Assembly: GCA_902800435.1 (NCBI GenBank)
Contig: CADCEQ010000083.1
Coordinates: 1-5,173, forward strand
Length of the DNA stretch: 5,173 bases
Direction of reading: 5' to 3'
From: an uncultured Prevotellaceae bacterium
GTDB taxonomy: Bacteria; Bacteroidota; Bacteroidia; Bacteroidales; Bacteroidaceae
Shown here: positions 1 through 5,173 of the stretch, piece by piece
Position numbering within the stretch: position 1 is the stretch's first letter
Layout: every line of letters begins with the position of its first letter
Translations under genes and position numbers: made by a program
Notes under the pieces: generated by a model
The model's database searches: none
Told to the model about the DNA's origin: nothing
What the model saw: the letters and a program-made list of their open reading frames with translations, nothing else

Positions 1-1384
1 CCTTGCGGTAGAGCTGTACGCGGCTGAGGTTCATGTCGGCAGCCAGGTCATCGACCGAAAGGTCGCTATTGTCCAAACGCGACTCGACAACCTCGCGGAA
101 GCGGGAGATAAAAGCCCCGCCTACGGCCCCTGACGGTGCTTCGTCAGGTTGTTCGTCGGCAGGTGTTTCTGCGACGGTGTCCTGGTTGGATTCCTCGACC
201 GGGGCAGTAGTGTCGGCCTCTGGGGACGTGACATGTGCTTCGGGAGTTATTTCCATGTTCCATAACGTATTTGCCACGCGTTGGCGCTGCATACTGATTT
301 TCCGCAGATGATAGAGGTAGAAGAGCACGAACACTACCACCAGCAGCAAGATGATGCCAATGGATAGCCAATTGGCTACTCGCTGCGCGTCAAGTTTGTG
401 CAGATAGCTGTCGGCCTTTTCGTGCAACAGGTCCAACTGGGCTGCCTGCCGCATCAACTCCTCGCCCTGCATCAACAGCACCTTGGCATTGTCGCGGGTG
501 ACGAGGGCCGACATCAACATCGTTTCCTTCTCGTATGGTTTGCCGTCGAGAATGCGGATGGCTAAGTCGATAATCTGATCACCATGCGTGGGGTAGATAT
601 ACGATGCGTCGAGCAGTGAGTCGCGAACCAGCTGAATGCCACCGTTCTCACCAGGCAGACCGTCGATGCCGCAATAAAGAGGAGTGGGTAAGGAGAGTAG
701 GGGAGACTCGGCTATCGCCTTCCTCGCCCCCATTGCCGTGCGGTCGTTGGCACCGAACACCAGGTCTACGCGTACCTCTTTATTATTGTTAAGCCACAGC
801 TTCGTGGTCTCGTATGCCGTGGGCTCTGTCCAGTCACCCTGCAGCGAGGCAGCCACCTTGATGCCGGGAGCTTTCTTGAGGGCCTCCATGAAGCCGTTGT
901 GGCGCTCGATAGCTGGCGATGAGCCTTCTAAGCCTTTAATTTCCAGGACAGTGCCCTGTCCGTGAAGCCGTGAGATGATGTACTCTCCCATCACGCGCCC
1001 CATCTCGTAGTTGTCGGCGCTGATGAAGGCGGTGTACTTCTGTGAGCTGGTCTTGCGCTCGAAGACGATGACGGGGATGCCCTTGTCGTAAGCCCGGTCG
1101 ATGGCGGGCGAGATGGTCTGCACCTGATTAGGGGCGACGATGAGCAGGTCGATGCCTTCGTTGACAAGGCTGTCAATCTGCTGCACCTGCCGCTCGTCGC
1201 TGTCGTAAGCCGCTGCGAACTTCAGTTCCACGTTGTCCTGGAAGTAAGCACCCATCCTCAGCTCTGCATTCTGCTTGTCACGCCAGATGTCTGCCGAACA
1301 TTGTGATACGCCGATGCGGTATTTTACCTTGCCGGTGGAACATGAGGTCAACAGCAGACCAGCGAAGGCGGCAAAGCAGATCAT
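1..1384 (-). other. Sensor module of the fusion ORF, readable as a separate gene from internal ATG 1384 (substrate-binding, TM, AraC-type HTH regulator)
   Basis: This is an alternative reading of the same frame, not a second locus. Starting at Met178 of the long ORF gives a hydrophobic leader, a lipobox cysteine, a periplasmic ligand-binding domain, one membrane helix and a cytoplasmic AraC-type DNA-binding domain. This is the layout of known Bacteroidetes membrane-bound one-component regulators, which sense a periplasmic ligand and regulate nearby sugar-use genes directly. The visible part is 461 residues. Most of the AraC domain, including its second helix-turn-helix, lies beyond the left edge. 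The ligand cannot be named from sequence; a monosaccharide or short sugar is likely from the ribose-type fold. Annotation pipelines may call either this module or the full fusion. Confidence 0.6.
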
Positions 1385-1915
1385 GCGGATAGGGTTGATC
1401 TTCAGGTAGCCCGTGCCGAAGGCTGTGGCGGCGAAGAGGGCGACGCTTATCCAGAATTGCCACGGGTTCTCCATAGGTGTGGAGAAATTCTCGGCATTGC
1501 AGAGCAGCAGGGTGGCGGCAGCCAGAAGTCCTACCACGGCGGGTCGCAGTCCGGCGAAGATGGAGCGGACGGGGCGTGTATGCATATATTTCATGAACAG
1601 GCGGCTGATAAGTATCATCAAGATGAACGACGGCAGTACCAGCGCAAGCGTTGCCGTGGCCGAGCCGAGCACAGCCATCAGGTGGCCGTAGCCGGCATTG
1701 TGGATGGCGGTGTAGCCGCAGTAGGTGGCTGAGTTGATGCCGATGGGACCGGGCGTCATCTGCGAGATGGCGACGATGTCGGTGAACTCGGCCGTCGACA
1801 GCCAGTGGGCGCGCTCCACCGTCTCGTGCTGGATGAGCGACAGCATGCCGTAGCCGCCGCCGAAGCCGAACAGTCCTATCTTGAAGAACGTGATGAAAAG
1901 GTCGAGGAATATCAT
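1..1915 (-). CDS. Fusion ORF: second CHR (ChrA-like) transporter half joined in frame to a periplasmic-binding/TM/AraC-HTH sensor; 3' end off window
   Basis: One uninterrupted frame of 638 codons runs from ATG 1915 to the left edge. Residues 1-189 are a CHR transporter half: FFKIGLFGFGGGYGM (10-24), SQMTPGPIGINSATY (51-65), GLRPAVVGLLAAA (122-134) and the usual final helix after LKINPI (171-176). Paired CHR genes normally stop around here. This one continues through TSC (190-192) into a Peripla_BP_4-like sugar-binding domain (about 199-475). Candidate ligand residues in that domain, by analogy with ribose-binding protein, are Trp211, Glu286-Arg287, Arg338, Asn390-Asp391, Asp418 and Gln447. 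A helical stalk (480-512), a transmembrane helix (516-535), a Pro/Glu/Asp-rich linker (about 556-598) and an AraC-type helix-turn-helix (LSVDDLAADMNLSRVQLYRK, 619-638) follow. There is no histidine kinase before the HTH. The start overlaps the previous stop as ATGA. The domains are secure. Whether the cell makes one fused protein, a shorter sensor from ATG 1384, or both is unknown; an assembly error is also possible. Confidence 0.85.
   Translation of the reverse strand, partial: MIFLDLFITFFKIGLFGFGGGYGMLSLIQHETVERAHWLSTAEFTDIVAISQMTPGPIGINSATYCGYTAIHNAGYGHLMAVLGSATATLALVLPSFILMILISRLFMKYMHTRPVRSIFAGLRPAVVGLLAAATLLLCNAENFSTPMENPWQFWISVALFAATAFGTGYLKINPIRMICFAAFAGLLLTSCSTGKVKYRIGVSQCSADIWRDKQNAELRMGAYFQDNVELKFAAAYDSDERQVQQIDSLVNEGIDLLIVAPNQVQTISPAIDRAYDKGIPVIVFERKTSSQKYTAFISADNYEMGRVMGEYIISRLHGQGTVLEIKGLEGSSPAIERHNGFMEALKKAPGIKVAASLQGDWTEPTAYETTKLWLNNNKEVRVDLVFGANDRTAMGARKAIAESPLLSLPTPLYCGIDGLPGENGGIQLVRDSLLDASYIYPTHGDQIIDLAIRILDGKPYEKETMLMSALVTRDNAKVLLMQGEELMRQAAQLDLLHEKADSYLHKLDAQRVANWLSIGIILLLVVVFVLFYLYHLRKISMQRQRVANTLWNMEITPEAHVTSPEADTTAPVEESNQDTVAETPADEQPDEAPSGAVGGAFISRFREVVESRLDNSDLSVDDLAADMNLSRVQLYRK
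1340..1384 (-). other. Fusion junction: ChrA final helix acting as a possible lipoprotein signal peptide with lipobox
   Basis: The segment reads MICFAAFAGLLLTSC (residues 178-192 of the long ORF). The first twelve residues match the terminal helix expected of a CHR half (LKINPI, then a small-residue-rich helix ending GLLL). The last four, L-T-S-C, fit the lipobox consensus with Cys192 as the lipidated residue. A basic residue (Arg177) precedes the helix. The junction between transporter-derived and sensor-derived sequence therefore probably falls within or just after LLL (about 1348-1356). No strong Shine-Dalgarno sequence precedes ATG 1384, which is not informative in Bacteroidetes. Confidence 0.55.
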
Positions 1916-2520
1916 GACTCTGCCCCCCCTTCTGCCCCCAAGGGGGCTACTACGTTTGACTTGCGGACATTTGTGTCCCCCTCGGGGGACGACGGGGGGG
2001 CTGCCATTCCGTAGATGTAGCCGCCGATGCCCGCTACTATTATAATATAAATAGGTGAAACACCGAGTAGCCAGATGAGAAGGGCCGAGACGACGGGTAT
2101 CCAAAAGTTGGTCCAGCCAATCTTCGCCGACTGCGCCATGCGGAACGTTGGCACGGCGATGAGGGCAACGACGGCGGGGCGTATGCCACGGAACATGGCG
2201 GCGATGACGGGGTTGTCCTTGAAGGCGGCAAAGAAGATGGCGATGGCGAGGATGATGAGAAACGAGGGTAGGGCGGTGCCGAAGGCCGTGGCCAAAGCAC
2301 CGCGCAGTTTCCGTAACTTGTAGCCTACGAAGATGGCAATGTTGATGGCAAAGACGCCAGGACAGCTCTGCGCGATGGCTATCAAGTCGAGAAGTTCCTC
2401 CTTCGAGACCCAGCGGTGGCGGTTCACCACCTCTTCCTCTATCAACGGAATCATGGCATATCCACCGCCGAGGGTGAATATGCCAATCTTGAAGAAGGTC
2501 TTGGTCAGTTCATAGAGCAT
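1912..2520 (-). CDS. chrA: Chromate transporter family protein, first CHR half (ChrA-like)
   Basis: This is an inner-membrane protein of the CHR family (CHR domain), 202 residues from ATG 2520. It is one half of a split two-gene transporter whose partner follows at once. Family motifs are visible: FFKIGIFTLGGGYAMIPLIE near the N-terminus, AQSCPGVFAINIAIFVGY, and FRGIRPAVVALIAVP. Several hydrophobic helices follow, ending at GIGGYIYG (about 164-171). I chose ATG 2520 because homologues begin a few residues before the FFKIG motif. An upstream in-frame ATG at 2556 would add 12 polar residues lying wholly inside purL. The gene overlaps purL by 11 nt and its stop overlaps the next start as ATGA. 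Residues 174-200 form an unusual hydrophilic tail encoded by a palindromic repeat (see the repeat entry). Known members export chromate, but the natural substrate in anaerobic gut-type bacteria is uncertain. Membership of the family is clear; the substrate is not. Confidence 0.9.
   Translation of the reverse strand: MLYELTKTFFKIGIFTLGGGYAMIPLIEEEVVNRHRWVSKEELLDLIAIAQSCPGVFAINIAIFVGYKLRKLRGALATAFGTALPSFLIILAIAIFFAAFKDNPVIAAMFRGIRPAVVALIAVPTFRMAQSAKIGWTNFWIPVVSALLIWLLGVSPIYIIIVAGIGGYIYGMAAPPSSPEGDTNVRKSNVVAPLGAEGGAES
1920..2005. repeat. GC-rich double-hairpin (REP/BIME-like) element inserted in the 3' end of the first chrA half, with 5-bp flanking direct repeats
   Basis: On the + strand there are two perfect short palindromes: GCCCCCAAGGGGGC at 1934-1947 (6-bp stem, 2-nt loop) and GTCCCCCTCGGGGGAC at 1975-1990 (7-bp stem, 2-nt loop). 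They are enclosed by imperfect inverted outer arms, 1922-1939 against 1984-2001, complementary at 15 of 18 positions. CTGCC occurs at both borders (1920-1924 and 2001-2005), 81 nt apart. Removing one 81-nt unit leaves chrA1 ending G-M-A-E-S and stop, still in frame and still in ATGA overlap. The structure resembles small non-autonomous palindromic repeats moved by RAYT/IS200-type transposases. That identity is inferred, and no transposase is in the window. It encodes residues 174-200 of the transporter. Confidence 0.65.
1923..1933 (-). promoter_or_regulatory. Purine-rich Shine-Dalgarno-like tract before the second chrA start, contributed by the repeat
   Basis: On the minus strand AGAAGGGGGGG ends 7 nt before ATG 1915, at ordinary ribosome-binding-site distance. 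It is part of the outer arm of the palindromic repeat, so it could be sequestered by pairing with the arm at 1984-2001. Bacteroidetes depend little on Shine-Dalgarno pairing and the ATGA overlap already implies coupling by termination-reinitiation, so its importance is uncertain. Confidence 0.3.
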
Positions 2521-5173
2521 TTTCAATCCACTTACGTGCGTTGACGAATGCCTCAATCCATGGCGTCACCTCGTCCTGACGGCGGTTGGCGGGATACCAT
2601 GCGTTCTGCCACGGGAAGATGGCGCGCTCTAAGTGCGGCATCATGCACAGGTGGCGGCCGTCATCAGAGCAGATGCCGGCCACGTCGTAGTCGGAGCCGT
2701 TCGGGTTGGCGGGATAGCCGTGGTAGTTGTACTTCGCCACGACGTTGTATGCGCTCTCTGCTTCTGGCAGAGAGAACTTCCCCTCGCCGTGGGCCACCCA
2801 CAGACCGAGTTTCGAGCCGCTGAGCGAGCCGAACATGACGCTGTTGTTCTGAGGAATCTGCAGCGCGATGAACTCCGACTCAAACTTGTGCGAGTCGTTG
2901 TGCAGCATCTTGGCACCCTTGGCACCTGTCAAGCCCAGTTCCACCATCAGCTGGCAGCCGTTGCAGATGCCGAGCGAGAGCGTGTCCTTGCGGGCATAGA
3001 ACTCGTCGAGGGCTTCCTTGGCCTTCGGGTTGAAGAGGAAGGCGCCTGCCCAGCCCTTGGCAGAGCCGAGCACGTCGCTGTTGGAGAAACCGCCGCAGAA
3101 GACGATGAGGTTGATGTCCTCCAACGTCTCGCGGCCGCTGATGAGGTCGGTCATCATCACGTCCTTCACGTCGAAGCCGGCCAGATACATCGAGTAAGCC
3201 ATCTCGCGCTCGCCGTTGGTGCCCTTCTCGCGGATGATGGCAGCCTTGATGCCAGTCGGCTCGCGGCGGTCGGCACTGATGCCGTATTGTGCTAACTTGC
3301 CGCTGAAGCCCTTCGGGAACTTCATCTCGATGGGTTGCTGCTTGTAGTTCTCGAAGCGCTCTTTCGCCTTGCCGTTGAAGCTCTGCTTGCGGTCAAGCAG
3401 GTACGAGGTCTTATACCAAACGTCACGCAGGCGGTCAATGTCGAAGGTCAGCTCTGTTGGCTGTGCAGCGGCGGTGTTGCTGTCCTTCGGACAAACCACC
3501 ACGATGCTGCGGCTGTCCTCCACGGGGTAGCCAATCTTGGCGAAGCCCACGCCGGCATCCTCCATAAAGTCCTTGAACTCTTGCTTGTGCTCGTCGCTGA
3601 CCTCAATCACCACGCCGGGATTCTCGGCAAACAGCGCCTTGACGATGTCGCCGTTCTTGCACAGGTCGTGCAGGTTGATGTGCATACCGCCACGGGTGTT
3701 GGCGAAGCACATTTCTAACAGCGTCGTGATGAGACCACCGGCGGAGATGTCGTGACCTGCCATCACCCAGCCTTTCTTGATGAGCTCCTGAACGGCGTTG
3801 AAGGCATCGGCAAAGTACTCGGCGTTCTTCACGGTGGGCACATCGTCGCCCACCTTGCCCAACGACTGTGCAAAGGCAGAACCGCCAAGGCGCTGCTCGT
3901 CGAACGAGAAGTCAATATGATAGATGGAGGCGTTCTTGTTGTTGACCAGTACGGGGCTGACAACTTGCTTGATGTCGCTGACTTCGCCGCCTGCCGATAC
4001 GATGACCGTTCCCGGCGAGATAATCTTCTCGCCGGTGGGGTATTGCTGCGAGAGCGATAGTGAGTCCTTACCCGTTGGCACGTTGATATGCAGGTCGCAG
4101 CAGAAGTCCGACAGAGCCTTCACGGCACTGTACAGACGGGCATCCTCGCCCTCCTGCGAACGGCACGGCCACATCCAGTTGGCGCTGAGGCTGATACTGT
4201 CGAGACCCTCGCTCAGCGGAGCCCAGACAATGTTGGTCAGGGCTTCGGCTACAGATAGCACGCTGCCAGCCTCGGGCGAGGCCAGTCCGGCCTGAGGGGC
4301 GTGTCCTAATGCGGTGGCGATACCCTTTTGTCCGCGGTAGTCGAGAGCTACGACACCGCAATCTGAGAGTGGCAGCTGTATCTCGCCCTGGCACTGCTGG
4401 CGGGCAATTTTGCCCGTCACGGAACGGTCTACCTTATTGGTCAGCCAGTCCTTGCAGGCCACGGCCTCAAGCTGGAGCACGCGCTCCAGGTATTCGCTCG
4501 TCTTGTCTTGACTATAGGTGATGTCTTCATAGTGGCGCTCTACGGTTGTGTCGCGCATGACGGTCTTCGGCGAGTGGCCGAACATCTGGGCTACGTCGAG
4601 GTCGAAGGGCTTCACGCCGTCGCCCTGACGGAACGAGAAGTGGGCGTCGCCCGTGGTCTCGCCGACTACGTAGAGCGGGGCACGCTCGCGCTCGGCGATG
4701 CGGCGCACGTGCTCGATGTGCTTTTCGTCGATGAGCAGGCCCATGCGCTCCTGGCTCTCGTTGGCAATGATTTCCTTCGACGAGAGTGTCTGGTCGCCGA
4801 TGGGCAGCTTCGTCATGTCAATCTCGCCGCCGCATTCCTCGACCAGCTCCGACAGGCAGTTCAGGTGGCCGGCGCTTCCGTGGTCGTGGATGCTGACAAC
4901 GGGGTTCACGTCCTCCTCGCAGAGGGCGCGCACCAGGTTGTAGGCACGCTTCTGCATCTCGGGGTTGGCGCGCTGCACAGCGTTCAGTTCGATGCCGTTG
5001 GAATAACGGCCTGTGTCAACGCTCGACACCGAACCGCCTCCGAGGCCGATGCGGTAGTTGTCGCCACCGACGACGACGACCTTGTTGCCCTTCTGCGGCT
5101 CTTTCTTCAGGCAGTCGCGCTTCGTGCCGTAGCCCACGCCGCCAGCCAGCATAATCACCTTGTCGTAAGCACA
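2510..5173 (-). CDS. purL: Phosphoribosylformylglycinamidine synthase (FGAM synthase), single-chain PurL, 5' end missing
   Basis: This enzyme converts FGAR, glutamine and ATP to FGAM, the fourth step of de novo purine synthesis, in the cytoplasm. The frame is open from the right edge to a TGA at 2512-2510, giving 887 visible residues. Single-chain PurL proteins are about 1230-1300 residues, so roughly 350 N-terminal residues (PurS-like and linker domains) lie outside. Visible landmarks, numbered from the edge, are: a glycine-rich nucleotide-binding stretch GGDNYRIGLGGGSVSS (36-51); IHDHGSAGHLN (95-105); NESQER (138-143); the second synthetase half with GHDISAGGL near 470; and a C-terminal class I glutaminase domain from about 640. 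In that domain GICNGCQL carries the nucleophile Cys737 and MPHLER carries His847 and Glu849, so the catalytic triad is complete. No frameshift is seen. A GTG at 5158 is not the start, because conserved coding continues upstream of it. Its end overlaps the next gene by 11 nt. Family assignment is very secure. Confidence 0.97.
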   Translation of the reverse strand, partial: CAYDKVIMLAGGVGYGTKRDCLKKEPQKGNKVVVVGGDNYRIGLGGGSVSSVDTGRYSNGIELNAVQRANPEMQKRAYNLVRALCEEDVNPVVSIHDHGSAGHLNCLSELVEECGGEIDMTKLPIGDQTLSSKEIIANESQERMGLLIDEKHIEHVRRIAERERAPLYVVGETTGDAHFSFRQGDGVKPFDLDVAQMFGHSPKTVMRDTTVERHYEDITYSQDKTSEYLERVLQLEAVACKDWLTNKVDRSVTGKIARQQCQGEIQLPLSDCGVVALDYRGQKGIATALGHAPQAGLASPEAGSVLSVAEALTNIVWAPLSEGLDSISLSANWMWPCRSQEGEDARLYSAVKALSDFCCDLHINVPTGKDSLSLSQQYPTGEKIISPGTVIVSAGGEVSDIKQVVSPVLVNNKNASIYHIDFSFDEQRLGGSAFAQSLGKVGDDVPTVKNAEYFADAFNAVQELIKKGWVMAGHDISAGGLITTLLEMCFANTRGGMHINLHDLCKNGDIVKALFAENPGVVIEVSDEHKQEFKDFMEDAGVGFAKIGYPVEDSRSIVVVCPKDSNTAAAQPTELTFDIDRLRDVWYKTSYLLDRKQSFNGKAKERFENYKQQPIEMKFPKGFSGKLAQYGISADRREPTGIKAAIIREKGTNGEREMAYSMYLAGFDVKDVMMTDLISGRETLEDINLIVFCGGFSNSDVLGSAKGWAGAFLFNPKAKEALDEFYARKDTLSLGICNGCQLMVELGLTGAKGAKMLHNDSHKFESEFIALQIPQNNSVMFGSLSGSKLGLWVAHGEGKFSLPEAESAYNVVAKYNYHGYPANPNGSDYDVAGICSDDGRHLCMMPHLERAIFPWQNAWYPANRRQDEVTPWIEAFVNARKWIENAL

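Follow-up and report, generated by a model that had tools for sequence, protein, structure and literature searches.

A chromate transporter half fused to a probable fructan-sensing regulator in Prevotella, with the last transporter helix apparently standing in for a lost export signal

A short-chain chromate transporter (CHR) half encoded by an uncultured Prevotellaceae bacterium is fused, in one uninterrupted reading frame, to a probable fructan-sensing regulator, with the last helix of the transporter apparently standing in for the export signal that the regulator has lost. The gene lies at one end of a 5,173-nucleotide stretch of DNA (the window; GenBank assembly GCA_902800435.1, contig CADCEQ010000083.1) and recurs in a second assembly. 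The product is probably a natural polyprotein, in which the final transporter helix acts as a lipoprotein signal and cleavage ahead of Cys192 separates a transporter half from a regulator held by a lipid anchor.

A transporter half without its own stop codon

A sequence-only reading of this DNA had claimed 638 codons without a stop, running through a CHR half, a binding domain, a membrane helix and an AraC-type HTH. Re-reading of the minus-strand frame 1915..2 finds 0 stops across the 638 codons, the protein continues past the window edge, and Pfam matches in the window and in the second copy (L001, described below) agree with the domain reading. The features are as follows.

2..1915, minus strand: fused ORF, made of the CHR B half, a periplasmic sugar-binding domain, a membrane helix and the start of an HTH; 638 codons in the window
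1355..1906, minus strand: Chromate_transp (PF02417), residues 4-187; Pfam E 8.2e-49
1385..1402, minus strand: KINPIR, a basic loop at residues 172-177 and candidate cytoplasmic n-region, from the charge pattern
1349..1393, minus strand: final helix of the CHR half (residues 175-189), a candidate h-region for a lipoprotein signal, from an AlphaFold2 model
1340..1351, minus strand: lipobox L189-T-S-C192, with the proposed LspA cut before Cys192, from the sequence pattern
539..1240, minus strand: Peripla_BP_4, residues 226-459; Pfam E 5.3e-44, nearest solved structure 2x7x
305..373, minus strand: the sensor's membrane helix, a hydrophobic stretch at residues 515-537 as judged by eye
2..46, minus strand: first 15 residues of HTH_18, cut by the window edge, position taken from L001
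1912..2520, minus strand: CHR A half, partner of the B half, overlapping the fused ORF by 4 bases; ORF list and Pfam
2510..5173, minus strand: purL (FGAR amidotransferase), which runs off the window and whose end overlaps the start of CHR A; ORF list and Pfam

The PF02417 match covers profile positions 1-166 of 166 and scores 166.3 bits against a curated cut-off of 28.6. No solved relative of the CHR half turned up in searches by sequence and by fold, the latter giving no PDB match at E <= 0.001. In short-chain CHR pairs (SCHR, PF02417), two overlapping genes each encode one half, A or B, of ~180-200 residues, and the window shares this arrangement, with B complete through its last helix. The fused B half differs from such pairs in lacking its own stop and continuing into a sensor. 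At 702 codons in L001, the ORF exceeds the size of a stand-alone half, which the mature half would regain only if cleaved.

GC-rich palindromic stretches at the 3' end of the CHR A gene (window 1919-2010) resemble an interspersed repeat by eye, and the C-terminus encoded there is longer than in most relatives. No Bacteroidota-type promoter motif serving the sensor alone was found on this strand of the window. Together with the gene overlaps, this suggests that the regulator is now co-expressed with purL.

The junction

The near unfused B halves stop at codon 190-191, ending ...KINPIRMICYAAFAGLLLFY or LLLLY, and standalone sensors begin MRQRFFYLFVLATLLVSCSGGKVKYRIG or similar. The junction of the fusion reads KINPIRMICFAAFAGLLLTSCSTGKVKYRIG, in which the helix comes from the transporter and the lipobox from the sensor, with no residues between. 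The sensor's own signal helix is absent, and the last CHR helix, which ends at residue 189 in the AlphaFold2 model of the CHR half (43 sequences, mean pLDDT 87.9, pTM 0.68), runs into the kept lipobox LTS-C192. By a permissive pattern, all 106 standalone sensors with enough N-terminus have a lipobox immediately ahead of the sensor domain, the remaining 14 of 120 being too short there to be counted. The initial statement that these sensors normally have a signal peptide of their own agrees with this, with its type now refined to lipoprotein-type.

A basic n-region (KINPIR), a hydrophobic stretch (helix 175-189) and a lipobox Cys (LTSC, 189-192) are all present, internally rather than at the N-terminus. 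As judged from the sequence pattern, one ORF would encode two proteins with a signal-peptidase site between them, which is the arrangement of a polyprotein. In the proposed mechanism, the B half would span the inner membrane and have its C-terminus on the outer side, and its last helix, behind the basic loop, would serve at the same time as lipoprotein signal peptide for the fused sensor. After lipidation of Cys192 by Lgt, LspA would make its cut just ahead of that residue. The products would be a 191-residue transporter half, with LLLTS as its end instead of LLLFY, and a sensor held by its lipid anchor, comprising a periplasmic sugar-binding domain, one membrane helix and a cytoplasmic AraC-type HTH. 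When bound to fructose or a fructan product, this sensor would switch on the adjacent SusC locus.

In fbcH of Bradyrhizobium, a cytochrome b/c1 polyprotein, a polytopic membrane protein and an exported protein are parted at an internal signal sequence. The signal in that case belongs to the exported part and is cut by signal peptidase I, whereas here the last helix of the transporter is the proposed signal and the cut would be that of a lipoprotein.

Membrane orientation of the two halves

Among 47 B halves, the 101-125 stretch and the 171-180 loop are basic and the 141-150 loop is acidic. All 47 lack K/R in their last 12 residues, and in all 47 a basic loop precedes the last helix. The 48 A halves have a mean of 2.4 K/R in the last 12 residues, with none in three. 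The B count leaves aside three copies of the fusion from the L001 genome and L148, and the A count leaves aside odd-length rows, L147 and two B-type rows. Under the positive-inside rule, these charge patterns would place the C-terminus of B outside and that of A inside. For the two-domain ChrA of Shewanella, a TMHMM prediction in the literature has 10 helices with the N-terminus outside (PMC5699817), which would put the end of its second half outside as well. The sequence-only reading had predicted a workable topology with a basic loop before the last helix, and the basic KINPIR and uncharged C-terminus are consistent with that prediction.

A second copy of the fusion

The nearest locus found, L001 (JAFPVW010000182.1), is a contig of a goat-abomasum Prevotella MAG with 97.87% DNA identity over window 1-5171. 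Its fused ORF has the same junction as the window and is closed by a stop codon following codon 702; HTH_18 is complete there, at residues 624-702 (Pfam E 2.2e-22). A gene for a 1037-residue SusC-type TonB receptor comes after the fused ORF; purL in L001 was identified from the DNA match and the ORF list.

The window and L001 differ at 41 of the 1914 shared ORF bases, giving 31 synonymous and 10 non-synonymous codons. The dN/dS ratio is 0.10 overall and 0.14 in codons 190-638, and codons 1-189 are without a non-synonymous change. Such substitutions are typical of a coding frame that is being maintained. In G001, the genome that contains L001, CHR matches are limited to two, namely the A half and the B half of the fusion, and there are 14 sensor matches, of which only the fused gene is full length, the others covering the HTH end of the query. 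No other full-length copy of the B half or of the sensor was found in this genome, so both products are presumably needed. The fusion is natural and occurs in two sequences, the window and L001, of one lineage.

As for the proposed check for CHR and sensor in one protein, the L001 locus has the combination, and no CHR fusion is present among the best 120 (66-73% of the query covered) of 7422 sensor matches. A search of the family for CHR took in 399 genomes, 351 of them with a match. All 11 other B halves with long open frames, chosen among the matches listed, stop at codon 189-191, with the long frames lying upstream. A literature search by title and start of abstract, with most subscription papers outside its scope, returned nothing on CHR fusions or on fusions that use a helix as a signal.

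Other fusions at the same helix

The CHR part was also searched against proteins of 0.55 to 1.75 times the ORF length (638 codons), which gave 165 matches from 7994 scored candidates. Two CHR stretches are held by 86 of the best 120 matches, and 25 run past the end of the CHR helix straight into a protein of exported type, as judged by family. The partners are GH43 (4), an Omp85-type lipoprotein (2), Peripla_BP_2 (4), GH3 (1) and DUF5106 with or without thioredoxin (14). These share with the window an in-frame join at the same helix end; they differ in partner, have a lipobox in some classes only, and are known from protein records alone. One further record, P0177, joins CHR to a membrane-rich tail. 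The remaining eight of the 120 look chimeric: P0139, P0147, P0172, P0176 and P0240 break inside CHR, P0126 and P0180 have CHR behind a piece of another gene, and P0158 mixes several domains. Cluster size is 1 in all eight, and also in many clean fusions (P0124, P0134, P0137, P0173 and most of the DUF5106 class), while the clean P0125, P0149 and P0152 represent 13, 14 and 13 sequences. A search among longer candidates gave 15 matches and, P0241 aside, no new clean class. P0242 has a ChrB_C domain.

A lipobox is found at the join in eight of eight lipoprotein-type fusions (two sensor, two Omp85, four Peripla_BP_2) and in none of the 19 others (four GH43, one GH3, 14 DUF5106). All four Peripla_BP_2 fusions have the Cys, even though they share 33-47% over the first 15 residues past the junction and 57-66% in their partners; an invariant Cys amid a diverged flank suggests selection for lipidation and hence cleavage. 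A pattern like that of signal peptidase I occurs in all four GH43 fusions, but the pattern is loose and also turns up in eight of 14 DUF5106 records, and it is weak evidence for a signal-peptidase-I cut site in GH43 fusions. The 14 DUF5106 records have neither a lipobox nor a conserved cut site, and these fusions may stay tethered.

Searches of genomes for the same classes gave no CHR frame running into GH43 without a stop among the matches listed from 398 genomes of the genus, although three have one stop; none into DUF5106 among those listed from 295 genomes of the order; and none into Peripla_BP_2 among those listed from 119 genomes of the genus of G040. On balance, we lean slightly toward the view that the last CHR-B helix is a recurrent donor of signal peptides, at whose end exported families have been joined, with signal peptidase II or I cutting some of the fusions and others remaining tethered. 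The fusions would then be natural reporters of a periplasmic B C-terminus.

Chimera, tether or internal start

The sequence-only reading had offered mis-assembly as one explanation. Both copies of the fusion are metagenome assemblies, and the chimera-like CHR records among the 120 matches listed show that such artifacts occur. An assembly or binning chimera is nevertheless very improbable: the identical junction is present in a second assembly ~2% diverged (41/1914 bases, dN/dS ~0.1), it lies mid-contig with purL before and SusC after, and five of the eight chimera-like records break inside the CHR domain rather than at its end.

The earlier suggestion of a transporter-coupled transcription regulator belongs to a reading in which no cleavage occurs and the sensor and the CHR half remain one covalent chain, a transporter-regulator protein that is transport-coupled or merely tethered. 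The open frame and the topology permit this, and its best evidence is the DUF5106 fusions, whose CHR parts (70-93% identical) and partners (36-78% identical) have the look of long-kept tethered forms, so that uncleaved forms seem to be tolerated in fusions of that kind. Against it, the lipobox is intact exactly at the helix end, every judgeable standalone sensor looks like a lipoprotein, and we know of nothing that would connect CHR transport functionally with the sensing of fructans. A lipobox kept right at the end of the CHR helix makes cleavage into two proteins likelier than a transporter-coupled regulator, and we regard the uncleaved form, the main rival, as unlikely, while recognizing that in so young a fusion the kept lipobox may be mere inheritance. 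Translation of the sensor could instead start mainly at residue 178, an in-frame ATG, which would give the sensor a short signal peptide and make the long form a by-product, since Met178 stands just ahead of the hydrophobic stretch. However, Met is usual at that place in Prevotella B halves and so is no sign of a start, a peptide from Met178 would lack the basic n-region, and no promoter motif of the Bacteroidota type is present on this strand of the window, all of which leaves internal initiation improbable.

Origin of the fusion

The chrB and sensor genes are on different contigs in both relatives checked, and among 80 sensor loci only L001 has CHR genes within the fetched flank. A rearrangement that brought a sensor locus behind purL-chrA-chrB is therefore needed. 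Local deletion between neighbors is unsupported for the sensor, given the separate contigs and the flanks without CHR genes. Relatives had been expected to show two separate genes beside an identical flank if the fusion were an assembly error or a strain-specific deletion; in the two relatives checked, the genes are separate and on different contigs.

The sensor is, by sequence comparison, a mosaic that points to recombination within fructan loci of rumen Prevotella. Codons 246-330 (window 926-1180) are 99.2% identical to L002, codons 190-245 are at most 86.4% identical to any fetched sensor locus except L001, and in codons 461-540 (window 296-535) the window matches L065 at 97.1%, L002 at 96.3% and L001 at 95.0%. 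Such a mosaic means that the junction may predate later exchanges. The description of the fusion as a recent deletion product is at most half right, as a rearrangement was required and the junction may be older than those exchanges.

For the GH43 fusions, by contrast, local deletion is a fitting origin. In seven of eight loci, the 420 bases examined beyond the B half include the start of an unfused GH43 gene; the eight were picked mostly because GH43 had been shown near chrB, so that this is no frequency. With GH43 so close behind chrB, it would suffice for the stop to disappear along with the signal helix of the enzyme. In the Prevotella loci L101, L104, L105, L117, L118, L119 and L128, GH43 with its own signal peptide is directly behind the CHR B half; the two share a frame in L117, L118 and L119, where one stop codon parts them. 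At L097:3745-4983, the CHR A and B halves form one 413-residue ORF, a short-chain pair turned long-chain.

A likely fructan regulator

Among solved structures, the closest in sequence to the binding domain is PDB 2x7x, titled "sensor protein" (E 2.3e-76), which we take to be the sensor domain of BT1754. This hybrid two-component protein of Bacteroides thetaiotaomicron is reported to bind fructose in the periplasm and to be needed to induce its fructan PUL (PMC3404733). The neighborhoods of related sensors fit this function. In L002, the order is sensor, a SusC-like gene whose product starts like that of L001, SusD, DUF4960, GH32 and GH2; in L065, the sensor stands before a SusC-like gene, a 579-residue ORF and a DUF4960 protein; and in L023, GH32 is near the sensor. 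The relation to 2x7x and the SusC and GH32 neighbors in relatives make a fructan regulator the likely function.

The fusion shares with BT1754 a related periplasmic domain, an AraC-type HTH output and an adjoining PUL of fructan type. It differs in that no histidine kinase or receiver domain is found among the Pfam matches of the 702-residue ORF, and the order Peripla_BP_4, membrane helix (by eye) and HTH_18 (Pfam, L001) is that of a one-component membrane regulator, here joined to a transporter half. Closer relatives are the standalone Prevotella sensors with Peripla_BP_4 and HTH_18 (e.g., P0001), which are up to 92% identical over the sensor part and in L002 and L065 occupy the same place before SusC. 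These have their own lipoprotein-type signal, in place of which the fusion has the CHR helix. At L002:7391-9049, the standalone sensor lies 12 bases behind a gene with SLFN_AlbA_2 and RecG-like HATPase_c_4 domains.

Between the fused gene and susC is an imperfect palindrome (L001:10711-10771) with two 30-base arms that are 80% complementary. Its fold has -33.8 kcal/mol (z -6.6, with 0 of 200 shuffles as good), and it is near-identical in L002 and L065. It is a candidate terminator or regulator site.

Implications

At the Segatella copri inulin PUL, a contiguous HTCS gene was reportedly not seen (PMC11784079), and one-component sensors like this one are perhaps relevant there. Fused ORFs of this kind are prone to mis-annotation, as with P0131, a CHR-Omp85 fusion labeled "chromate transporter" by its source. 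The set of fusions also lends independent support to the view that the two short-chain CHR halves are oriented oppositely. It is usual to regard signal peptides and transporter helices as distinct, and in this case a transporter helix has apparently been reused as an export signal. If cleavage is confirmed, this would be a plain route by which bacterial polyproteins arise.
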